Of a stretch of DNA of 20,782 nt, positions 2,846 to 13,744 are shown one piece after another (positions within the stretch are counted from its first letter, which is position 1; every line of letters starts with the position of its first letter). The stretch covers positions 1 to 20,782 of IMG/VR virus record IMGVR_UViG_3300035180_001568. One strand, 5' to 3'. The translations under genes and the position numbers were made by a program. Below the pieces are notes generated by a model, which had not been told where the DNA came from, did no database searches, and was given only the letters and a program-made list of their open reading frames with translations. The stretch comes from a virus.

Positions 2846-2896
2846 CTTGTGTGTCTTCTTTCATATATACACTTTGTAAATATGGAGGATCTTCTC

Positions 2897-3631
2897 ATGA
2901 AGTTGTATTATACCTATGTTATGCGTCATCCGACAACAGGCGTTGCGTTTTATGTTGGTAAAGGAACGGGAAACCGAATGTATTTCCACTGGCGAAACCG
3001 AAACGCTGCTCGATTTGCAAACAAGCATTTACAGCGCACCCTACAGAAACTTGATTGTGAAGGATTGAAACCTATTTACGAGAAAGCGGTTGACGGGGTG
3101 GATGAACAGAGAGCGTTGGACGCAGAACAGAACTTGATCAAAGCATATGGCCGTAAGGGATTGGGTACAGGCATGCTGGTTAATCTTACGGACGGTGGTG
3201 AGAGTGGGGCAACATCGTGGTCAGAAGATACGAGACAAAAGAAACGAGATACAGAACTTGCCAAACAGAAAGGTCGTCCAGTGTGTCAGTACACGGAAGG
3301 AGGTGAACTGCTCGCCGTTTTTTCGTCGGCAAAGGTGGCTTCTGAACAAGTACTATCTGCTAATCGTTCATACATTACACAATGTTGCAAAGGTAAGCGT
3401 GTTTCATCTGGTGGATTCGTATGGGCATACAAAGGCGATCCAGTTCCTGTGTACACCAAAAAATACTACAAACAAGTTGAACAACGCTCACAAGCGGGTG
3501 ATCTGATCGCTGTTCATCAGTCATTGACCCACGCACAGCAAGCATCAGGTGTTGAACTTCACAATATCAGTGAAGCGTGTCGAGGCAAATCAAAAACCGC
3601 TGGTGGATTTACGTGGTGTTATTATCGATAG
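2897..3631 (+). CDS. Free-standing GIY-YIG homing endonuclease with NUMOD-type DNA-binding repeats
   Basis: This 244-residue protein starts at ATG 2897, chosen because GGAGGA (2884-2889) lies 7 nt upstream. An in-frame ATG at 2882 and a longer open frame from 2729 would read through gp47 and its leader. The N-terminal catalytic domain has the GIY-YIG layout: YYTYV at 4-8, FYVGKG at 18-23, catalytic Arg R27, metal-binding Glu E77, then LVNLTDGG at 94-101. A NUMOD3-like segment (SWSEDTRQKKRD, 107-118) is followed by two NUMOD1/IENR1-like helix-turn-helix repeats at about 128-183 and 190-244, ending GGFVWAY and GGFTWCYY. Such enzymes cut a target in a relative lacking the gene and copy themselves in by repair. 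No intron boundary is visible, so it is free-standing. It lies antisense to its neighbours and overlaps the end of the 74-residue gene by 23 bases. Confidence 0.9.
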   Translation: MKLYYTYVMRHPTTGVAFYVGKGTGNRMYFHWRNRNAARFANKHLQRTLQKLDCEGLKPIYEKAVDGVDEQRALDAEQNLIKAYGRKGLGTGMLVNLTDGGESGATSWSEDTRQKKRDTELAKQKGRPVCQYTEGGELLAVFSSAKVASEQVLSANRSYITQCCKGKRVSSGGFVWAYKGDPVPVYTKKYYKQVEQRSQAGDLIAVHQSLTHAQQASGVELHNISEACRGKSKTAGGFTWCYYR

Positions 3632-3833
3632 CGGTTTGTAAGCTATTGACCGTATCCTGTAACCTGGCAAGATGTGGCTTTCCGTAGTTTTCCATTCGGT
3701 TCGGTGGGTAGTTCACAATCGCTTGTTCATATCGCTTAACTTGGTCTTGTGCCAGTTGAAGAAGATGTTGTAATTGTGCAAGTGTCTTGCCCGCTAACCT
3801 AACCTTCTTGCCGTTGATAAATGGGTAATTCAT
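3609..3833 (-). CDS. Small helical protein of unknown function, downstream of the late sigma gene
   Basis: I do not recognise this 74-residue protein. It starts 4 nt after the sigma factor stop codon, so it is almost certainly on the same mRNA. No strong Shine-Dalgarno precedes the ATG (3831-3833), which suggests translation coupled to the sigma gene. After a short basic start (INGKKVRLAGK) it is rich in Leu, Gln and Ala. It looks like two helices (about 17-43 and 54-70) joined by a Pro/Asn/Tyr turn (YPPNRMENYGKP), that is, a small helical hairpin. No membrane segment, signal peptide or cysteine motif is present. Its last seven codons plus the stop lie antisense to the end of the homing endonuclease gene. 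Position suggests a role linked to late transcription, but nothing in the sequence proves it. It could instead be an unrelated small phage protein. Confidence 0.65.
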   Translation of the reverse strand: MNYPFINGKKVRLAGKTLAQLQHLLQLAQDQVKRYEQAIVNYPPNRMENYGKPHLARLQDTVNSLQTAIDNNTT

Positions 3834-3837
3834 ACGT

Positions 3838-4437
3838 TTAGTATTGGACTAATTCTGGAGTATCATCCTGCTCAACGGGAACTTCAACGGGTGCAACTTC
3901 GGTCCCCTTATCGTCACGTTCGATTGGACTATCGGAATACCGGGTTCGTGTCTGCAATTCAAGTGTGGACCGTATTGTATCAAAGTCACGCTCATCTTCG
4001 ATTTTTGGACCCCCCTCATCATTGTCATCATATCCATATGATGGGTTCAAACCAGAATCAATCAACAACAAGTCTCGAACGTCGCGTTGGCGCTGTTCGT
4101 GATTAAGATACTGGATGAATGAGTTCTTAACGCATTGTGTAAAGAACGCAAATGGATTGTTGCTTTTCTCGGGATTGAAGCTATTCCACGTTCGTACAAG
4201 CATCATCATTGCGTATGCCTGCATGTCTTCGTTGTATGAATAGTTGACAAAGTTACCCTTTTTGGCATACTTTGAACACAACAGTTGAAGCATTTTCGCC
4301 AAAGCATCAGACATTTGTCCTTTTTTCTTTGACTTTTTGACCTCTGCGAGCAGTTCTTTGTTGTTAAGGTATATTACTTTTCCAGCTTGGGTGATCGAAT
4401 TCTTTGCTGTTGGTACTGGGGGTGCTTTTGTTGCCAT
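3838..4437 (-). CDS. 55: gp55-like late-transcription sigma factor
   Basis: This 199-residue protein resembles T4 gp55, the minimal sigma factor that directs host RNA polymerase to late promoters. Matching features: the N-terminal YLNNKELL (T4 has a YVNNKELL-type motif); a helical core (about 45-120) of sigma region 2 character; and FNPEKSNNPFAFFTQCVKNS, which parallels T4 FDETKYKNPHAYITQA. The acidic tail ends in hydrophobic residues (TPELVQY), in the place where T4 gp55 carries its sliding-clamp-binding end; conservation of that function is inferred. T4 gp55 is 185 residues. Perfect TATAAATA octamers in this window are the expected targets. The gene is preceded by its own sigma70-type promoter (4474-4502). 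The best ribosome site, AAGAAGGT, is about 12 nt from the ATG, a rather long spacing. The leftward order 55, 47, 46 matches T4. Confidence 0.88.
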   Translation of the reverse strand: MATKAPPVPTAKNSITQAGKVIYLNNKELLAEVKKSKKKGQMSDALAKMLQLLCSKYAKKGNFVNYSYNEDMQAYAMMMLVRTWNSFNPEKSNNPFAFFTQCVKNSFIQYLNHEQRQRDVRDLLLIDSGLNPSYGYDDNDEGGPKIEDERDFDTIRSTLELQTRTRYSDSPIERDDKGTEVAPVEVPVEQDDTPELVQY

Positions 4438-4473
4438 GGTTGGTTTTATACCTTCTTGGTGAGGTTTGGTTTA

Positions 4474-4502
4474 ATTATCGTGTAAAAAATGTGAAAGGTC
4501 AA
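4474..4502 (-). promoter_or_regulatory. sigma70-type promoter for the late sigma gene
   Basis: Read on the minus strand, TTGACC (4497-4502) is separated by exactly 17 bases (4480-4496) from GATAAT (4474-4479). Each hexamer differs from consensus by one base. Transcription would start near 4467, giving a leader of about 30 nt before the sigma factor ATG. This is what a phage gene read by unmodified host polymerase early in infection would need. Activity has not been tested. Confidence 0.72.
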
Positions 4503-4504
4503 CG

Positions 4505-4512
4505 TATAAATA
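4505..4512 (+). promoter_or_regulatory. T4-type late promoter, exact TATAAATA
   Basis: A perfect T4 late consensus octamer lies 41 bases upstream of the ATG at 4554. It would drive the tube-cap-like gene and gp53. It lies two bases from the -35 hexamer of the leftward sigma70 promoter. A good ribosome site (GGAG, 4544-4547, spacing 6) follows. Confidence 0.82.
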
Positions 4513-4553
4513 TCTCAACAGGATCTCGTATCCAACCTGTGGTGGAGTGCTGA

Positions 4554-5315
4554 ATGGCAGACATTGACAATAATTTCAAAGTAAGATTGATTCCAATAGC
4601 CAGTCTATTGTACGGCGGTGACCCTGCGTCAATACGCGAGAGTCAAGTTGCGTTTGATGTTACGCCAACGTTTTCTGAAACACGAACAGCAGAATATGCA
4701 GCTGTCACTCCTGTTCATATGCCAGGTGCAATGCAAGTGTACAAGCATACAAACTCACGACAGTTTGAAATTACAGCTCATCTAATTTCACGAAACGTTG
4801 CTGATGCTGTCAAGAACATGAAAAATCTCCAAACGCTCCGCGGATGGTTAATGCCTTATTTTGGTGGTACGGATACGCTAACGAATAGTAACAAGGAAGC
4901 TCGGCGAAACACATCATACGGAGCTGGGGGTGACCAACAAACTCCCTTGACAGCAGAGGAACGTGATGCAAAGGTACGCGAACGTGTTCAATCAGAAGGC
5001 GTTCAACTTCGAGGTGCACCACCTGATATTTTGTATTTATACGCATACTCAACGGGGGCAAGTGATCTTCGTGGTGGTGGTCCAGTAGTCAACATTAACC
5101 GTGTTCCTGTGGTACTTACGAGTCTTGGAATTACATATCCCGAAGATGTTGACTATATTCCTGTGTACAACACGGAATACACACCAAACTCACGAACAGA
5201 TCCATTCCCCAAAAAGTTAGATGTGACAATCTCTTTGGTAGAAACACACTCACCACGTGAGTACGAAAAGTTTGATTTACTTGCTTACAAGCTTGGTAAC
5301 CTTGTTAACTTCTAA
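4554..5315 (+). CDS. Baseplate tube-cap / tail-tube-initiator-like protein (gp48/gp54 type)
   Basis: This 253-residue protein is probably the component joining the baseplate hub to the tail tube. It has a tube-protein-like pattern: an early beta region ending in VYKHTNSRQFEITAHLISRN (about 63-82, 'field'-type strands); a helix and turn DAVKNMKNLQTLRGWLMPYF (about 84-103); PPDILYLYAY (155-164); then VNINRVPVVLTSLGITYPED and a final strand-helix, LDVTISLVETHSPREYEKF. The polar insert at about 104-150 is rich in Asn, Thr, Glu and Arg and looks like a flexible loop. The layout resembles T4 gp54 (a strand-rich region followed by an alternating Trp helix), but the match is structural in style rather than strong in sequence. 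Position next to gp53 and the hub supports a baseplate role. It is the first gene of the rightward late block; the start is fixed by GGAG 6 nt upstream. Confidence 0.62.
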   Translation: MADIDNNFKVRLIPIASLLYGGDPASIRESQVAFDVTPTFSETRTAEYAAVTPVHMPGAMQVYKHTNSRQFEITAHLISRNVADAVKNMKNLQTLRGWLMPYFGGTDTLTNSNKEARRNTSYGAGGDQQTPLTAEERDAKVRERVQSEGVQLRGAPPDILYLYAYSTGASDLRGGGPVVNINRVPVVLTSLGITYPEDVDYIPVYNTEYTPNSRTDPFPKKLDVTISLVETHSPREYEKFDLLAYKLGNLVNF

Positions 5316-5324
5316 GGATATAAC

Positions 5325-5651
5325 ATGGCAGCTTATCAACGCTCAGATCAACAACGAGGCGGCCGCTTTGTACAAGGTGGAAAAGTTGATATAAAGGGAA
5401 ATCGGCTTGGTTGGTGGGAACGAGTTGTGTTCCCAAAATCTCCAACAGATATTTCATACACAGTCACGGCTAAGTATGCTCAACGACCAGACTTATTGGC
5501 GTTTGATCTGTACGGTCGAGCTACGCTTCAATGGTTCATTATGCAATACAACACTGTATCAGACGTATATGAGGATTTTACAGAAGGTACAGTTATTACC
5601 CTTCCAACACGTTCCCGTCTTTTTGGTGAACTGCTGTCAAAGTCCACGTAA
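5325..5651 (+). CDS. 53: gp53-like baseplate wedge protein (short form)
   Basis: This 108-residue protein carries the conserved core of T4 gp53, a LysM-like wedge subunit that links neighbouring wedges around the hub. The telling stretch is RPDLLAFDLYGRATLQWFIM (about 54-73), the counterpart of T4 RPEELANAIYGNPQLYWVLL, followed by DVYEDFTEGTVITLPTRSRL, a LysM-like strand and turn. T4 gp53 is 196 residues, so this version has only the N-terminal core and lacks the long tail. The N-terminus is basic and Gly-rich (RGGRFVQGGK). The start is supported by AAGGA about 8 nt upstream. It begins 9 nt after the previous stop, so the two genes form one transcription unit from the 4505 promoter. Confidence 0.75.
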   Translation: MAAYQRSDQQRGGRFVQGGKVDIKGNRLGWWERVVFPKSPTDISYTVTAKYAQRPDLLAFDLYGRATLQWFIMQYNTVSDVYEDFTEGTVITLPTRSRLFGELLSKST

Positions 5652-5660
5652 CTATGAGCG

Positions 5661-5668
5661 TATAAATA
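5661..5668 (+). promoter_or_regulatory. T4-type late promoter, exact TATAAATA
   Basis: A second perfect octamer lies in the 42-base gap between gp53 and the hub gene, 25 bases before the ATG at 5694. The short flank CGTATAAATA also occurs at the 4505 promoter. AAGGA (5677-5681) is the likely ribosome site, about 12 nt from the ATG. Confidence 0.82.
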
Positions 5669-5693: not shown

Positions 5694-8594
5694 ATGTCCA
5701 ATCCACCTAACAGACTTGCGTCTTTTCGATCGTACAGCTATTACCATGTGTTAGTGATGTGCGATAGCAGTCAAACTGCTGATGCTCTTGCAGAGAGTTC
5801 AGATCTCAATGTGTGGGAGCACGCAACACAAGATACCCGTGTAGTTGATTCCCGGCCGTTCACTCACGATCTCGGTCCATATTCACCAAAGAAGGTTGAA
5901 GGCGCTGGAAAATACATTGTTTTGATCAATGGGTCCACTGATGCGTCGTTTGTAATCGAAACAGCAACATGGACGTCAGCAACTGGATCAAGCGCAGTAC
6001 CTGGCGATAGATCAACATCAATTGCTGTTGAGGGTTCATTGAAACTCTCAGAACCAAAAGGCGTTGCATTCTTGGATCAAGTGGTTAAATGTTGTGTAGC
6101 GCTTGGTGTTGATAGTGCGCAAGTGGTATATGTGCTCAAAACGTTTTTCATTGGATTTCGTGATGATGAACAAACGCACGACGGTATTGGGAACCGACAA
6201 GACTTCATTGGTGACATTCCTCCCGTTAATTTCATCGTATATGATGTCACAGGATCATTCACAGAAGCCGGTGGGTCATACGAAATGCAGTTTGTGGCCG
6301 CCGGGCACGGGGCAGCACGACTTCCACAGTACAGCAAAGCTGTAAACTCCATGAGTTTGACAGCTGGTGATAGTTTGAAGGAAACCCTAACAAACCTTCA
6401 AACAAACATCAACGACAGTTATGACCAATACTATGATTGCGTATACAAACAAATTGCAGCTGTTCAAGGTGATTCAGCGGATTTGCTAAAAGCATTGCGC
6501 TCTGTCAAGTACGTGATTGAAGTTGGTAGTGATTATAGTGATGCAAATGAGATGAAGTATAAGGTATCAAATCAATCCCAGCAGTATAAAAATACTGCTG
6601 GATGTGGAGATGCTGCACAAATCACATTCCCTGCACACACAAGCATTGAAACAGCAATTGGCACCATCATGATGATGAGTCCGCAGGTACAAGCGGACAT
6701 GACAACCGGTGATACAGCGACAGGCGTGAAGTACGAACATAAGATTCATACAGCCCTTGTTTCAGAACAAGCTTCTGATGCAGAAGAGGGTGTGATTGAT
6801 TATACCGTATATTACCGCGTTGAGCGGTTTATGTCACCAAAAACTATAACATACAACTCTGCTTTTGATGAATTACAACGTGATAATGTTGATTTGAAAG
6901 ATCCTCAAAACGCAAAAATACTTCAAAACATCATTGAGTTTGATTACATGTACACAGGCAAGAATATTGATATTCTTGAATTTGACATGAAGGTCAACAT
7001 GGGAATGGCGTATTTGCAAACTGCAACACTTGCAAATACGTTCAAGAGTCAGTTAGAGCGGGCTCCAAACCGCCAGATGCAACCCTCTGCGGCTGATTTG
7101 AATAGCCACACAGTGCGGTTTGGAACAATGGTTCAGACGCCAGTCTTCTTTGGATCACAAATCAAAGCACCTAACATGATTAACTCGCAGAATGCGGGGG
7201 ATTCAATCCAGAGTGCATATACAATGACGAAGCATGCTTCGTTAGAAGTAACAGATGTGTCGATGAAGATAATTGGAAGCACTCAACTGCTTGGTTCAAC
7301 TAACAAAACTACTTCTTCCAAATACATTGTAGAGTCAGCCACTCGTGTACAAGAATTTACAGAGCAGACGGAAGGAAATTTCCCTGATTGGTCACACGTA
7401 CCTGCATATGTGAAAATCAAAATTAAAATGCCACGTGAAAATGATGATTTCGCGTTGTTTACTGGGCAATCAACAACTGGTGATCCAAGAACTGATCCTG
7501 GCATCACTGATTATGCTCGTGACTTTTGGTTTGATGGATACTATTACGTTGTTGGAGTTGAACACGTATTTGACGGTGGTGAATTCTCACAAGTTCTTCA
7601 ACTATTAGGATTGCCGAAGCGAAGCGCATTCCAAGCAACACAGGAAAACGCAACAACAGAAACAGCTATTACTGCGGGTGTCGGATCGTGCTATGATAAT
7701 CAAATTGGTGCGGGCAGTACAGCGCCAAACCCAACCGTGCCTTCTATGCCACCAGCAGGGAATACTGAACCAACAAACCGAGCTGATGCAAACGCAGCCA
7801 ACTCAACTGCAAAAAATCCTTCCGACGTTGTGGGATGGGACAGCGCGTCGCCTGCTGTCAAATCAGCGATTATTGATGCGTCTAATCGCTACGGAGTTGA
7901 TGTTGTGGTAATGGCACAGTTCGCAGCAAAGGAATCTGCGTTCAATCCTAACGCAAAAGCTCCAACATCAAGTGCTTCTGGATTGTATCAGTTCATTACA
8001 AGCACGTGGAACGGCTTGGTTAATCAAGGAAAAATTGCCGGTCTTCCACCAGGATCTCCTGATAAGCGGTTCGACCCACAATTTAACGCTGCGGGCGGTG
8101 CAGTATTTCTTCGAGACAACGCCAGAGCGATTAGATCTAACGATGTTGGTGATTTGTATCTCGCTCACTTTCTCGGCCCGGCAACTGCTGCAAAAGTAGT
8201 ATCCAGTGATAATAGCAGTGGTGGAAAAGAATTACTAATAACAACACTCGGCGCAAGCGCTGTTCTACGCATTTCAAAAGCAAACCCATCAATTGTCAAA
8301 CCAAATACAACTGTTGGAGAACTACGCACATGGGCAGCCACTTCAATGGCTAAAACCTTGAAGAATGGAATTAAGGTGGCTGATCAGCGAAAAGCAACCC
8401 CACCAGCAGCTGCCGCAAATGCGCCAGGACAAACACTGCCGTCATCTAATCCACAAGACGCCCGTAGAACTGCTGATAAGCAAATTGCTGCACAACAGAA
8501 TGAAAATGTACAGGCAGGAAAAACAGATACTAATCCGTGTGGTCCTACGGCAGGTCAAGCACCACAAGATCGGCCAATACGAGGAGGCCAATAA
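5694..8594 (+). CDS. Baseplate hub protein with C-terminal lytic transglycosylase domain
   Basis: This 966-residue protein combines a hub with a cell-wall hydrolase. Residues 1 to about 650 are a beta-rich structural region of the hub (gp27-like) class. They include YIVLINGSTDASFVIETATW near the start and VKIKIKMPREND, then DYARDFWFDGYYYVVGVEHV, before a strand-rich end. A Pro/Ala/Asn-rich linker follows (about 660-710). Then comes an SLT-type lysozyme-like domain (about 715-830): AAKESAFNPNA with the likely catalytic Glu E747, ASGLYQFITSTW, DPQFNAAGGAVFLRDN and YLAHFLG. The tail (about 880-966) is Pro/Ala/Gln-rich and disordered-looking. The SLT domain would open peptidoglycan as the tail tip passes through. 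T4 instead carries its lysozyme inside gp5, between the OB fold and the spike helix. The stop overlaps the spike gene start as TAATG. Hub assignment rests on context and domain style; the SLT domain is clear. Confidence 0.85.
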   Translation: MSNPPNRLASFRSYSYYHVLVMCDSSQTADALAESSDLNVWEHATQDTRVVDSRPFTHDLGPYSPKKVEGAGKYIVLINGSTDASFVIETATWTSATGSSAVPGDRSTSIAVEGSLKLSEPKGVAFLDQVVKCCVALGVDSAQVVYVLKTFFIGFRDDEQTHDGIGNRQDFIGDIPPVNFIVYDVTGSFTEAGGSYEMQFVAAGHGAARLPQYSKAVNSMSLTAGDSLKETLTNLQTNINDSYDQYYDCVYKQIAAVQGDSADLLKALRSVKYVIEVGSDYSDANEMKYKVSNQSQQYKNTAGCGDAAQITFPAHTSIETAIGTIMMMSPQVQADMTTGDTATGVKYEHKIHTALVSEQASDAEEGVIDYTVYYRVERFMSPKTITYNSAFDELQRDNVDLKDPQNAKILQNIIEFDYMYTGKNIDILEFDMKVNMGMAYLQTATLANTFKSQLERAPNRQMQPSAADLNSHTVRFGTMVQTPVFFGSQIKAPNMINSQNAGDSIQSAYTMTKHASLEVTDVSMKIIGSTQLLGSTNKTTSSKYIVESATRVQEFTEQTEGNFPDWSHVPAYVKIKIKMPRENDDFALFTGQSTTGDPRTDPGITDYARDFWFDGYYYVVGVEHVFDGGEFSQVLQLLGLPKRSAFQATQENATTETAITAGVGSCYDNQIGAGSTAPNPTVPSMPPAGNTEPTNRADANAANSTAKNPSDVVGWDSASPAVKSAIIDASNRYGVDVVVMAQFAAKESAFNPNAKAPTSSASGLYQFITSTWNGLVNQGKIAGLPPGSPDKRFDPQFNAAGGAVFLRDNARAIRSNDVGDLYLAHFLGPATAAKVVSSDNSSGGKELLITTLGASAVLRISKANPSIVKPNTTVGELRTWAATSMAKTLKNGIKVADQRKATPPAAAANAPGQTLPSSNPQDARRTADKQIAAQQNENVQAGKTDTNPCGPTAGQAPQDRPIRGGQ

Positions 8595-10087
8595 TGCCAA
8601 TGTTCACAGCCCAACAAGAGATATTTCAACAAGGGGCACAATCATCCCCAACAATGCCGTTCATTACACTTGGAATGGTGGTAGATACTAATGATCCCCA
8701 ACAAATGGGACGAGTGCGTGTATTGTGCGCACAGTGGGGTGATACGTGGGGATCCAAGGCAGAAGATCTGCCTTGGGCATTGTATATGTCACCGTTTGGA
8801 GGGCAGCAGCAAGTTGGCACGCGTGGTCCAGGTGTTCAAGAATCAGAGGGCGGCGTAGCATACGGAATGTGGGCAATTCCAAAGGTTGGATCACAGGTAG
8901 CTGTTGTATGTATTGACGGCAACCCAATGACACGGATGTATTTTGGTTGCGTGTTTGACCAATTTACTCCACATACTATGCCGCACGGTAGGTTCATGTA
9001 TGATGACCACCCAGAATTGGAGAAAGCTGGAAGTGATCCTGCTCCGTACGGGCCGTATACATCAGCTGAAAAGTTTATTCAGCCGTTAGCAACAAACCTA
9101 AAACAAGCGTTTGGTAATGTCGGTGAGCCAAACCACGAATTCCGGTCACGAGCTGCTGACTACACAGTATCTCGGTTAGACATTTCACAATTGAACCAAA
9201 CGTATTCAAAGGTTCAAGATGATAAGGACATTCATCACGAAGATTGGACGTCTACACAGGGATATCAAGTTAGTAGAACTGATCCAAACGCGCCCTCGTC
9301 ATTTACTGACAGAAACTATGATTCAATGGTGTATTCGTTTACATCACCTGGATTTCATTCATTATCAATGGATGATCGTCAGGAGAACTGCCGAATTCGG
9401 TTGCGTACAACATCTGGTCACCAGATTATAATGGACGATACGAACGAGCGAATCTACATTGCAACAGCAAAAGGAAACAACTGGATTGAGTTGGATCAGG
9501 ACGGAAACATTGATATTTTCACTGCCAACAAGTTGAATATTCACGCCGCAAAAGAAATTAACATGACGTCAGACGAGACAATTCGTTTGTATGGCAAAAA
9601 AGGTGTTCACATCAAATCAGATGATGAGCTTCGAGTTGATGTTGCAAAGGATATTCACGTTAAAACAGCTCAAAACTTGCGGATACATTCAACACAGGCC
9701 ACATTTGTACAAGCTGACGGCGCGCTGCACATTAAGACAGCTGACACAATGTATGCAGAAGCTGCATCAGCATTGAACGTTAAATCAGGGGCTGCTCTCA
9801 ATCTACAATCGGGTGCAGCTACCAATATTTTGGCTGGTGGTGACATTATTGGTACTGGATCAGCCGTTCACTTCAATGGACCAGGCGCAGGATCAGCAAC
9901 AGCTGCAACAGCCGCATCTGAACAACTGGCTTTCTGGACCAACCGGGTTCCAGATCATGAGCCATGGGCGCGAGTAATGACAAAAGAAGACACAGCTCAC
10001 GATCCAGAATTTGATTACACCAGCAAAGAGGTTGGTAAATCCGAACGTGGTCGAACAATTGACCGCGGAATGTACTGGCGTAGATAA
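8594..10087 (+). CDS. 5: gp5-type baseplate central spike (OB fold + triple beta-helix), no lysozyme domain
   Basis: This 497-residue protein forms the membrane-piercing needle. The start is ATG 8594, overlapping the hub stop (TAATG) with GAGGAGG (8581-8587) just upstream; the open frame runs 19 codons further back but inside the hub gene. An OB-fold domain lies at about 12-125: LGMVVDTNDPQQMGRVRVLC, WAIPKVGSQVAVV and GNPMTRMYFG, as in VgrG and gp5. A linker region (about 125-290) follows, then a triple-stranded beta-helix built from alternating short repeats at about 303-430, for example DGNIDIFTANKLNIHAAKEI, LRVDVAKDIHVKT and LNVKSGAALNLQSG. The C-terminus (RVPDHEPWARVM, then a basic end at RGMYWRR) follows the helix. 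T4 gp5 has a lysozyme between the OB fold and helix; here that position holds no hydrolase. No PAAR-tip gene is visible nearby. Confidence 0.9.
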   Translation: MPMFTAQQEIFQQGAQSSPTMPFITLGMVVDTNDPQQMGRVRVLCAQWGDTWGSKAEDLPWALYMSPFGGQQQVGTRGPGVQESEGGVAYGMWAIPKVGSQVAVVCIDGNPMTRMYFGCVFDQFTPHTMPHGRFMYDDHPELEKAGSDPAPYGPYTSAEKFIQPLATNLKQAFGNVGEPNHEFRSRAADYTVSRLDISQLNQTYSKVQDDKDIHHEDWTSTQGYQVSRTDPNAPSSFTDRNYDSMVYSFTSPGFHSLSMDDRQENCRIRLRTTSGHQIIMDDTNERIYIATAKGNNWIELDQDGNIDIFTANKLNIHAAKEINMTSDETIRLYGKKGVHIKSDDELRVDVAKDIHVKTAQNLRIHSTQATFVQADGALHIKTADTMYAEAASALNVKSGAALNLQSGAATNILAGGDIIGTGSAVHFNGPGAGSATAATAASEQLAFWTNRVPDHEPWARVMTKEDTAHDPEFDYTSKEVGKSERGRTIDRGMYWRR

Positions 10088-10102
10088 CAGAGCGTTGCTT
10101 CC

Positions 10103-10110
10103 GATAAATA
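10103..10110 (+). promoter_or_regulatory. T4-type late promoter variant GATAAATA
   Basis: One base differs from TATAAATA, at the first position. It lies in the 49-base gap between the spike gene and gp25, 26 bases before the ATG at 10137. A good ribosome site AAGGAA (10123-10128) follows. Position and spacing match the two perfect octamers upstream. Confidence 0.65.
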
Positions 10111-10136
10111 CAGAACACTAACAAGGAACAAGTGAA

Positions 10137-10514
10137 ATGACAAAAGGGTTGTATCGTGGGTATTCATCATACGAGTATCAAGCGAAGAAAACGTTCAGCA
10201 TTACAGATATTGAATTGGTCAAGCTTGACTTGCTCAATCATATCTTTACGCGCCGTGGTTCGCGCGTGATGATGCCAACGTTTGGAACCCGCATTCCTGA
10301 CCTTGTGTTTGAACCTCTTGATGCCATCACATTGGATGTGCTTGAAGAAGACTTACGTGCTGTATTTGCGTTCGATCCGCGAGTTCGCCTATTAGAGTTG
10401 GTAATTGCTCCCGAGTACGATTCCAACGCTGTTACAGCCAGTGCAAAACTACTCTATATTGAGCTCAACCTTACGGGTAATCTTGATATCAACATTGTAT
10501 TTGAGGGTTCATAA
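10137..10514 (+). CDS. 25: gp25-like baseplate wedge protein
   Basis: This 125-residue protein belongs to the gp25/GpW lysozyme-like wedge family, which starts sheath polymerisation at the baseplate in contractile tails (T4 gp25 is 132 residues, so this is full length). The family signature is visible: DIELVKLDLLNHIFTRRGSR, then MMPTFGTRIPDLVFEPLD (about 43-60), then a helix and paired strands, ending ALLYIELNLTGNLDINIVFE-like (residues about 102-123; the first residue of that stretch is K here). It is one of the most conserved baseplate proteins in phages and contractile injection systems. The stop overlaps the gp6 start as TAATG, so the two wedge partners are translationally coupled, as is common for these genes. 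It is the first gene after the 10103 late promoter. Confidence 0.92.
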   Translation: MTKGLYRGYSSYEYQAKKTFSITDIELVKLDLLNHIFTRRGSRVMMPTFGTRIPDLVFEPLDAITLDVLEEDLRAVFAFDPRVRLLELVIAPEYDSNAVTASAKLLYIELNLTGNLDINIVFEGS

Positions 10515-13500
10515 TGAGCAGATTAGTCGCAAGAGCAGAATCATGGGAACGGGCATATGATGCGTTTCAAAACGTAAATTTTGCTGCGTTTGACTACAAT
10601 ACCGTCAAACAAAGTTTGCTTGAATACATCAAACTGTATTTTCCTGAAACATTCAATGACTTTATTGAATCAAGTGAATTCATTGCCATCATTGAGACAT
10701 TCGCATATATTGCAGAGTTGCTGGCATATCGCCTTGATATCAACGCTCATGAAAACTTTATTTCAACAGCACAGCGGAAAGATTCGATTCTGCGGTTGGC
10801 AAAACTGGTGTCATATACAGCTTCTCGTGCACTTCCAGCACGCGGTCTGGTAAAAATCACATCAGTATCTACGACAGAATCTGTTGTTGATTCGAACGGT
10901 AATGATCTTGCAAACCGAACGATTCGGTGGAACGATGTTAGCAACACCAATTGGAAAGACCAGTTTATTCTCGTAATGAACCGCGCATTGGAACAAGAAT
11001 TTGGATCTGTTGGTCCAACGGATAGATTCCAAGTTCAGGACGTATTGTTTGAATTGTATTCGTGGAATTTAACACCGTTGCCAACTGGTGTATTTTCATA
11101 TTCTGCAATTGTCAATGGTCAAAATGCTCCAATGGAGCTGGTTCCTGTCACGTATGATTCAAAGATTGGGATTCTTGAACGTCGTCCTCAAAACAATGCC
11201 AACTTCACATTCTTGTATGGTCAAGACGGACTTGGAGATACTTCTGACACAACAGGATTCTTCTGCTTCACAAAGCAAGGATCTTTGCAGCGGTATCGTA
11301 CGTCTTTCGACGGTATTACACCAAACCAAACATACGACATTGCTGCTCAACAAGTCAATGATACGGACGTTTGGGTTAATGCTGTTGACAGTGTCACAGG
11401 AACAACTCTTGATGAACCATCGCTTCTCCCTTACCGTCGTGAAACTACTGACGGGAAATCAGGCGAGTGGGTGCAGGTTGACCTTGCACACGCACAGAAC
11501 GTCATTTTCAACACAAACCCAAAGCGTAACAAGTATGAGATTGAAACGCGTGACAGTAACCGCGTACGCTTGATCTTTGGTGACGGTGAATTTGCTGACG
11601 TCCCCGCTGGTACGTTTGATATCTGGGCACGTACGTCATTAGACCAAGATATTGTTGTACCACAAGCTTCCGTAGTTAACACGCAATCATCTTTCACATA
11701 CGTTGATACGTTTGGAAGGGCGCAAACGTTTACGTTTACGTACAGTCTGATCAATTCACTGCAAAATGCATCTGCATCAGAAGATATTGAGCACGTTCGT
11801 GTCACGGCACCAGCTGTGTACTATTCACAGGATCGAATGGTAAACGGTGAAGACTACAACGTATTCATGCTTCAAGATTCTTCAATTTTGAAGCTACGAG
11901 CAGTTAACCGTACTTTTGCAGGTGATTCAAAGTATATTCCGTGGCACGATGCGTCAGGAACATATGAAAACATCAAAATATTTGGTGATGATGGTATTTT
12001 GTATTTCCAAGATAGTGGAGATACAATAGCAACCCCTGTTGTGGACATTAGCGTACTAATCTCAACATACATTGAGCCACTGCTATCTTCAACAGACATC
12101 TATCTGCACATGGCAAGTGCAGGTGTTCCACTCCTGCAATATCGTCGGACATTTAACAACGATGAAAAGAATCGAATTACAGCTGCATTGACACCACCTC
12201 CAACCCCAGCCCAGATGGAGATGTACTACAACACTGTGACATATGATTGGCACGCAGTTAAAGTCAGTGATGACCCCGCAGTTGCCTTGGCACCGTACGG
12301 ATGGGCTTCGGGTCAGTTTATTGCAGACCCATTGATTTTAGTCAACCAAGCATCGATCTTTGAAACACGGTATAACGTAACGCGTAATGCGCGAAGGTTG
12401 GTATTTGAAAGTCAAACAACTTCGTTTTGGAATACAAATAGTGCATCAACGGTGGTTGAGTATGATACCCTGCGTTCTGATGATGATAACATTGTGATAT
12501 TGCAAGCAAATGTTAATTACAATCGTGACGGCATCCTTACAGAAAACTGGACATACAATGTATTAGGTCAAGAAACAGTTGACTCGGGCACAGAAACAGG
12601 ACTTCCTGATGTGCATCGGTTGTCTCTGCTGTCACAAGACGTTAATGACGACGGTGTGCCTGATGACTTGGTAATTGATGATGAAGTCAATCACCGCGGC
12701 GTTGCTGACATTATGATGCCAAAGTATTACTACACAGTTCCAGCAGGCATTCCTTTATTTGGAGGTGTAGATATTACGCTTCCAACGTACTATTACATCG
12801 ATCCCGCTGCTCCCGATCAAACCCCTGATATTAGTGTATCGTTTAATGGAATTGAATTGACAGACCAAGCAGTCCAATGGGGAGTTTCTGCTGCACTTGG
12901 TTCATATGCATCCAACAAAATTACGTTGTATAATGCAGTATACGCTGCTCCTGGAATGGTTCCTGGTACTTCACAAATTTTGATCAAGATCAAAGACTAT
13001 GTGTACTTTACTCGCCCAACTACAACCGATCCTTGGGAACAAGCACCAACAGCTCCTGCGTCAATCAATTCATTTGCTACGGATCAGATCAATGCAACAC
13101 AGCTGTGGAAGCGTCACGAAGGACGCTCTGATTTGAACTTTGCGTGGTTTCACCGTTCCCCTCGGTACTATTTGGTTGATCCATCACCATCAAATATCAT
13201 CGACAGTTTCATCATTACCAAAGGCTACTATATGGCGATGAAGCGATGGCTCGAAGACCCGTTGGCAACTCAACCAACCCTTCCAACCCCATTGGAATTG
13301 AGGACGTCATATGGATATCTGTTGGACAACAAGATGATTTCTGATACGATTGTTCTTCACCCTGGAAAGATCAAACTTTTGTTTGGGGCACGTGCTACTG
13401 CATCACTCCAATGCTCGTTTAAGGTCATTCGTTCCGCTGATCGTAGCTTAACGGACAACCAAGTCAAAACAACAATCGTTACCACAATTCGCAATTTCTT

Positions 13501-13744
13501 CAACATCACGTTGTGGGAGTTTGGAGAAACGTTCTACTTCACGGAGTTAGCAGCCGCTATACACGCTGCATTACCGACGGAAATCAGTTCCGTAGTACTT
13601 GTTCCTTCACTGCCCCAGAATCAGTTTGGAGACTTGTTCCAAGTGCTGGCACGCGAGGATGAAGTGTTCTATCCAGATGTGTCTGTAACGGATATTGAAA
13701 TTGTTACGGGCTACACTGCAACCAACCTTCGTCTGAACGCATAA
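10514..13744 (+). CDS. 6: gp6-like baseplate wedge protein (BaseplateJ type), enlarged
   Basis: This 1076-residue protein is the wedge subunit that forms the inner ring of the baseplate. The N-terminus is strongly T4 gp6-like: YNTVKQSLLEYIKLYFPETF (about 28-47), SSEFIAIIETFAYIAELLAY, RLDINAHENFISTAQRKDSI and LVSYTASRALPARG. The J-family motif FGDGEFADVPAG begins at F355. T4 gp6 is 660 residues, so about 400 are extra. They lie mostly in the middle (about 480-900), a beta-rich region with a D-N-D-G-D-type loop (DVNDDGVPDD, 709-718) that resembles a calcium-binding loop, and repeated Tyr-rich strands (PKYYYTVPAG, PTYYYIDPAA). The C-terminus (about 930-1076) again looks like the family: IKLLFGARATASLQCSFKVI, FFNITLWEFGETFYFTELAA and VLAREDEVFYPDVSV. 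The ATG overlaps the gp25 stop (TAATG). Confidence 0.9.
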   Translation: MSRLVARAESWERAYDAFQNVNFAAFDYNTVKQSLLEYIKLYFPETFNDFIESSEFIAIIETFAYIAELLAYRLDINAHENFISTAQRKDSILRLAKLVSYTASRALPARGLVKITSVSTTESVVDSNGNDLANRTIRWNDVSNTNWKDQFILVMNRALEQEFGSVGPTDRFQVQDVLFELYSWNLTPLPTGVFSYSAIVNGQNAPMELVPVTYDSKIGILERRPQNNANFTFLYGQDGLGDTSDTTGFFCFTKQGSLQRYRTSFDGITPNQTYDIAAQQVNDTDVWVNAVDSVTGTTLDEPSLLPYRRETTDGKSGEWVQVDLAHAQNVIFNTNPKRNKYEIETRDSNRVRLIFGDGEFADVPAGTFDIWARTSLDQDIVVPQASVVNTQSSFTYVDTFGRAQTFTFTYSLINSLQNASASEDIEHVRVTAPAVYYSQDRMVNGEDYNVFMLQDSSILKLRAVNRTFAGDSKYIPWHDASGTYENIKIFGDDGILYFQDSGDTIATPVVDISVLISTYIEPLLSSTDIYLHMASAGVPLLQYRRTFNNDEKNRITAALTPPPTPAQMEMYYNTVTYDWHAVKVSDDPAVALAPYGWASGQFIADPLILVNQASIFETRYNVTRNARRLVFESQTTSFWNTNSASTVVEYDTLRSDDDNIVILQANVNYNRDGILTENWTYNVLGQETVDSGTETGLPDVHRLSLLSQDVNDDGVPDDLVIDDEVNHRGVADIMMPKYYYTVPAGIPLFGGVDITLPTYYYIDPAAPDQTPDISVSFNGIELTDQAVQWGVSAALGSYASNKITLYNAVYAAPGMVPGTSQILIKIKDYVYFTRPTTTDPWEQAPTAPASINSFATDQINATQLWKRHEGRSDLNFAWFHRSPRYYLVDPSPSNIIDSFIITKGYYMAMKRWLEDPLATQPTLPTPLELRTSYGYLLDNKMISDTIVLHPGKIKLLFGARATASLQCSFKVIRSADRSLTDNQVKTTIVTTIRNFFNITLWEFGETFYFTELAAAIHAALPTEISSVVLVPSLPQNQFGDLFQVLAREDEVFYPDVSVTDIEIVTGYTATNLRLNA

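Follow-up and report, generated by a model that had tools for sequence, protein, structure and literature searches.

Overlapping divergent promoters between a gp55-like late sigma factor gene and a baseplate operon in T4-related phages, and their potential for feedback

Genomic context of the gp55 locus

The window analyzed here comes from the virus record of a T4-related phage and is 20,782 bases long. On its minus strand it encodes gp46- and gp47-like recombination nucleases (SbcC/SbcD; positions 12-2845; phrog_77, E = 4e-90, and phrog_100, E = 2e-52) and, on the same strand, a 199-aa ORF (3838-4437) that belongs to the gp55 late sigma factor family by its similarity to phrog_234 (E = 5.9e-30); its score against Pfam Sigma70_r2 (22.4 bits) is slightly below the cut-off of 24. 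A plus-strand ORF (2894-3631) with weak Pfam matches to GIY-YIG/NUMOD homing endonucleases lies between the gp47-like gene and a small ORF. The late operon runs on the plus strand and begins with a 253-aa member of a virion structural protein family (4554-5315; phrog_12050, E = 1.5e-14), whose counterparts in the phages XaC1, RaK2, and PA5oct are annotated as virion structural proteins. It is followed by a gp53-like baseplate wedge gene (5325-5651; phrog_7145, E = 5e-14; Pfam gp53) and by the remainder of the baseplate operon (5694-13744), identified from ORFs and profile matches, with a transglycosylase-like baseplate gene (5694-8594), a gp5-like hub gene (8537-10087), a gp25-like gene (10137-10514), and a large structural ORF (10514-13744) that is likely gp6-like from its position alone. 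The gap at 4438-4553 lies where the late baseplate operon meets a pre-late module (gp46-gp47-gp55).

Several relatives (L021, L023, L024, L025, L027, and L034) harbor a second, diverged gp55-like gene (~3001-3840 in each) directly after gp55, mostly in another frame, and matches to the late-sigma family were obtained for three of them (E = 7e-22 to 9e-17). Two tandem late sigma factors thus appear to be carried by these phages, with a possible division of promoters or functions between the two. A group I intron was considered for the longer gp55 genes and rejected, as Rfam was silent and the extra stretch is the second gp55-like gene.

Divergent promoters in the intergenic region

The 116-nt gap (4438-4553) described in a first-pass annotation is indeed intergenic, flanked by the ORFs at 3838-4437 (minus) and 4554-5315 (plus), and it contains the two outward-facing promoters that the annotation had read there. 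The leftward one, ahead of the gp55-like gene, consists of a TTGACC −35 hexamer (4497-4502, minus) and a GATAAT −10 hexamer (4474-4479, minus), with a predicted start near 4467. Primary-sigma promoters have TTGACA- and TATAAT-like hexamers with a spacer of 16-18 nt, and this site matches the consensus at 10 of 12 positions with a spacer of 17 nt; in relatives the −10 is TATAAT-like, and TTGAC is conserved in the IMG/VR clade. A probable ribosome-binding site for gp55, AAGAAGG, lies at 4451-4457 (minus). Facing the baseplate genes is a perfect T4-type late promoter box, TATAAATA (4505-4512, plus), which is conserved in relatives and lies about one helical turn before its predicted start near 4518, as in a promoter class that needs no −35 element; a probable ribosome-binding site for the first late gene, GGAG, is located at 4543-4546 (plus). 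Exactly two bases (4503-4504) separate the box from the −35 hexamer in the window, as first noted, and the predicted starts are 51 bp apart.

Two further copies of the box occur in the window. One (5661-5668, plus) precedes the 966-aa baseplate/transglycosylase gene. The other (5034-5041, minus) is a perfect copy within the first late gene that points leftward to gp55; it is absent in nearly all relatives checked and is probably a by-product of codons.

TATAAATA has 3 copies in the 20.8-kb window, where 0.56 are expected. The location of this sequence by an ORF start at 38 of 43 sites in six relatives identifies it as a genuine start-associated motif in the window's clade. Taken as a class, sigma70-like sites do not exceed the chance expectation for the window (36 found, 40.5 expected), so the gp55 promoter by itself proves little. 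A strict composite of both promoters (TATTTAT, 3-5 nt, TTGAC, a spacer of 16-18 nt, and at least five of six matches to TATAAT) was scored across the window and the large contigs from six relatives. The window has a single match, at gp55, and 200 Markov shuffles gave none; the composite also occurs exactly once in each of G006, G007, G008, and G009, always at gp55, where at most 0.025 are expected per genome, while G001 and G004 retain the arrangement with few mismatches. The promoter pair at gp55 is far above chance. A scan for the composite in all viral contigs was not informative, as the matches listed were mostly chance and a reversed-box control behaved alike, and its counts were not used. 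The composite was not found at the cyanophage and KVP40-like gp55 loci that were scored. Cyanophage gp55 lies after uvsW and a small gene, all on one strand, and the divergent late operon is absent there; a KVP40-like and a T4-like phage likewise have no such operon at gp55.

Conservation of the promoter spacing

Relatives of gp55 were taken from IMG/VR, the late box and the gp55 promoter were searched independently, and loci where the script had picked another site were checked by eye, giving a final set of 32 distinct IMG/VR loci, window included. The distance from the box to the −35 hexamer in this set is 5 nt (20 loci), 4 nt (10 loci), or 3 nt (2 loci), and these three values account for nearly all loci in which gp55 is divergent from the late operon. 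From the box to the −10 hexamer the distance is 28 nt (13 loci), 27 nt (13 loci), or 26 nt (6 loci). Ten cultured jumbo phages, including E. coli 121Q, GAP32, CBB, RaK2, and Munch, also have 26-28 nt between the late box and the −10. The gene order and the box are common to phages of Xanthomonas (XaC1, XbC2), Cronobacter (GAP32), Pectobacterium (CBB), Klebsiella (RaK2, fENko-Kae01), E. coli (121Q, Sharanji), Salmonella (Munch), and Erwinia (SNUABM_47, Kaldavass). Most of the cultured jumbo phages have a −35 that is poor or of another kind and an extended −10 (TGnTATAAT), and the distance is still 26-28 nt. The expectation that the spacing would be kept in close relatives was thus correct in kind, although the exact two bases are not what is conserved. 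The conserved quantity is the 26-28 nt from the late box to the gp55 −10, that is, the distance between the promoters, because it holds even where the −35 has been replaced (the CBB/GAP32/121Q group).

The same gene order occurs with looser spacing in the more distantly related XacN1, RAS14, PA5oct, Vibrio 2.275.O, and L008, where 37-68 nt separate the box from the −10. The individual distances in L008, L404, L405, L493, and L495 are 37, 45, 46, 47, and 68 nt, which are close to 27 nt plus whole helical turns (10, 20, 20, 20, and 40), in few loci and with values that depend partly on promoter choice; such steps would hint at phasing between two polymerases. Three relatives (L021, L026, and L431) have no late box. 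The intergenic region of L021 is only ~30 nt and both promoters are gone, while its neighbors in the tandem-gp55 group keep both.

Whether this spacing is constrained bears on the most serious alternative, namely that these are ordinary promoters at a module boundary in short intergenic DNA, which interfere too weakly, or at too late a stage, to have an effect and have simply been inherited in this arrangement. Since a gp55-core tree contained few well-supported forks, 14 phylogenetically independent closest pairs were compared instead of counting events on the tree. The late leader differs in 13 of the 14 pairs and the gp55 leader in 12, mostly by several bases; the −35/−10 spacer differs in 5 pairs. 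The gap between box and −35 differs in 6, and the change is larger than one base in just two of these, both with loose lineages. A stretch of 4 nt takes fewer indels than one of 28 nt, and when normalized by length, 6 changes in a stretch of 3-5 nt is about the number that the leaders predict, as compact packing would have it, and intergenic regions are short throughout (~72-134 nt at most loci with resolved start codons). The argument for constraint can therefore be made only from indel size, which is ±1 in tight lineages, and from the constant 26-28 nt, of which the identical distance in phages with a different −35 is the stronger. Against constraint, lineages with 37-68 nt and the boxless relatives show that other states are tolerated. 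On the other hand, packing does not readily account for leaders that vary widely on both sides (late, 17-46 nt; gp55, 20-76 nt) around a constant inter-promoter distance of 26-28 nt in 42 loci, the group with the different −35 included, nor for an arrangement that is confined to gp55 and not seen at other gene boundaries. Compact packing is a tentative but real competitor to a regulatory function.

Assignment of the late box

The late box belongs to the late operon. In relatives, 11-46 nt separate it from the late start codon, also in XacN1, PA5oct, and RAS14 with their loose spacing, and where the promoters have separated (XacN1, RAS14, and L008) it remains by the late gene, while the distance from box to −10 widens to ~46-68 nt. 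The late operon of G006 begins with a nucleotidyltransferase gene placed before the structural gene, with box and spacing unchanged. A nucleotidyltransferase gene with an FGRFNPPT motif is the first gene of the late operon in L020 (G006:46515-47144), L010, L011, L013, L014, L016, and L019, and a check in G006 placed it after the late promoter and before the structural gene that usually comes first. At L026 and L431, the neighbor is a similar gene, and no late box was seen at these two loci.

The assignment also bears on a second alternative, in which the AT-rich late box serves the gp55 promoter as an UP-like contact, so that the fixed distance would reflect activation of gp55 and not exclusion. 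By its coordinates, TATTTAT spans roughly −41 to −47 on the gp55 promoter, which is the position of a proximal UP subsite. UP-like elements have also been reported at early promoters of CBB (PMC5259590). However, TATTTAT is missing there from most of the other strong sigma70-like promoters of these genomes, the box tracks the late start codon and not the gp55 promoter (XacN1, RAS14, and L008), and what is conserved is a sharp late-promoter sequence and not general AT-richness. The reading of TATTTAT as an operator or UP element for gp55 transcription is disfavored, since the box goes with the late gene upon separation, and this explanation is improbable. It is far less probable still that one of the promoters is unused, with gp55 expressed by read-through or from another promoter, or the late operon from the 5661 box only: sigma70-like sites as a class are unremarkable in the window and the box at 5661 does exist, but dozens of divergent phages keep the two elements together at sensible leader lengths, and the first two late genes lie upstream of 5661.

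Class of the gp55 promoter and other regulators

The gp55 promoter is a plain TTGAC/TATAAT type in the window's clade, in which a search for a distinct middle-type promoter class (TTGACYTT or TGAAACG before many genes) was negative. CBB, GAP32, XaC1, and 121Q have a −35 other than TTGACA together with an extended −10. The CBB paper assigns the gp55 promoter to a predicted variant class that has TGAAACG for the −35 and occurs mostly before DNA-synthesis genes, not to the classic RpoD-like class, and it lists ATAAATA before structural genes (PMC5259590). The description of the locus as an early and a late promoter placed back to back is thus sustained as far as two credible, divergent promoters are concerned, while "early" is not established, and "pre-late" is the safer label for the gp55 promoter given the variant class reported for CBB (PMC5259590).

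No match to the AsiA or MotA families was found in six relatives, while a Tequatrovirus positive control matched, which leaves room for control at the level of the promoter. T4-type late promoters are served by gp55-polymerase together with the clamp and gp33 as activators. A gp45 profile gave no match in relatives, although this profile is insensitive and also misses a cyanophage control. For CBB, the genome paper reports no gp33 or gp45 homolog (PMC5259590).

Potential for mutual exclusion and feedback

The geometry of the gap suggests that the two promoters should not be occupied at the same time. The footprint of a primary-sigma holoenzyme extends from roughly −55 to +20; for a start at 4467 this corresponds to ~4447-4522 and spans the whole late box and the late start. 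Conversely, a late complex starting at 4518 needs the DNA before its box, where the −35 hexamer (4497-4502) sits. The earlier proposal that either polymerase would cover part of the other promoter agrees with this geometry, as the recognition elements of each lie within the expected footprint of the other. In 42 loci the predicted starts are separated by 51-53 bp, which should leave no room for two polymerases, and geometrically these are overlapping divergent promoters too close for joint binding. Mutual exclusion is a strong structural inference that is well supported by the geometry.

Under the preferred explanation, host RNA polymerase with its primary sigma factor would start leftward near 4467 and make gp55, as suggested by a promoter match that is kept in relatives, and gp55-polymerase would start rightward near 4518 on TATAAATA and make the baseplate genes, as suggested by the T4 system and the location of the box. 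Because the recognition elements of each promoter lie inside the DNA of the other polymerase, occupancy would be mutually exclusive. As gp55 and active templates accumulate, late polymerase at the box could cut further gp55 synthesis on that template, residual loading of primary-sigma polymerase could delay this one late operon, and the late sigma gene would thereby be capped by its own product. The converse suggestion, that sigma70 polymerase holds the late promoter shut, is largely redundant, as there is no late holoenzyme before gp55 is made; only the blocking of gp55 synthesis by late polymerase would be new regulation.

Negative feedback on gp55 is a plausible inference that meets two difficulties. 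In T4, gp55-polymerase has little specificity for late promoters until it is activated by the sliding clamp (PMC2988020), so the occupancy by late polymerase may be too low for repression, and the many template copies present after replication would dilute occlusion at any single one. Feedback, if present, should act only after late promoters are activated. With these points weighed, conserved overlapping divergent promoters with exclusion plus feedback on gp55 are assigned a probability of roughly one half. The more specific claim, that across a large clade of T4-related giant phages gp55-polymerase on a single dedicated late promoter directly turns off the opposite-strand gp55 promoter, is somewhat unlikely as it stands. 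Similarly doubtful is the corresponding view of the locus as a repressor-free, self-limiting late switch, whose geometry was kept while the non-late promoter changed class.

Comparison with known systems and implications

The locus resembles T4 late transcription in its gp55-family sigma factor, in the TATAAATA box before baseplate genes, and in the division into pre-late and late genes (PMC2988020). In contrast, early and middle transcripts of T4 share one polarity (PMC2988020), and no late operon diverges from the start of gene 55 (PMC2988020; Tequatrovirus example). The T4-related jumbo phages CBB, GAP32, RaK2, 121Q, Munch, and XaC1 have the same gene order and the same distance of 26-28 nt as the window's clade. 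Promoters of CBB have been predicted in print as separate lists, with one ahead of gp55, and the passages of that paper that were consulted do not mention an overlap of the two promoters (PMC5259590). The nearest documented early-late case is that of phi29, where the early promoters A2c and A2b and the late promoter A3 lie together and one set of factors turns the early promoters off as the late one is turned on (PMC3100819). The factors of phi29 are the DNA-binding proteins p4 and p6 acting with host sigma-A polymerase (PMC3100819), whereas the blocker proposed for the window is another polymerase, one that carries what the controlled gene itself encodes.

Overlapping divergent promoters that act as switches are already a known kind in phages. 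The pR/pRM pair of lambda forms a bistable switch from overlapping divergent promoters with product feedback, through repressors bound at operators. The window shares the overlapping divergent promoters, with product feedback as the proposed part, and an operator of the lambda kind was not identified at its gap. What would be new here is that the blocker carries the very sigma factor whose gene is blocked. A description of the gp55 overlap was not found in the literature searched, a scope outside which many subscription papers lie.

The timing of late genes in T4-related jumbo phages has been little studied, and the gp55 locus provides a conserved, compact, single-locus candidate for repressor-less feedback on a late sigma factor. 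The presence of the arrangement in E. coli phages that can be grown on laboratory strains (the 121Q group, including Sharanji on MG1655) makes the question directly testable, and XacN1, RAS14, and PA5oct, with their naturally loose spacing, offer built-in comparisons.
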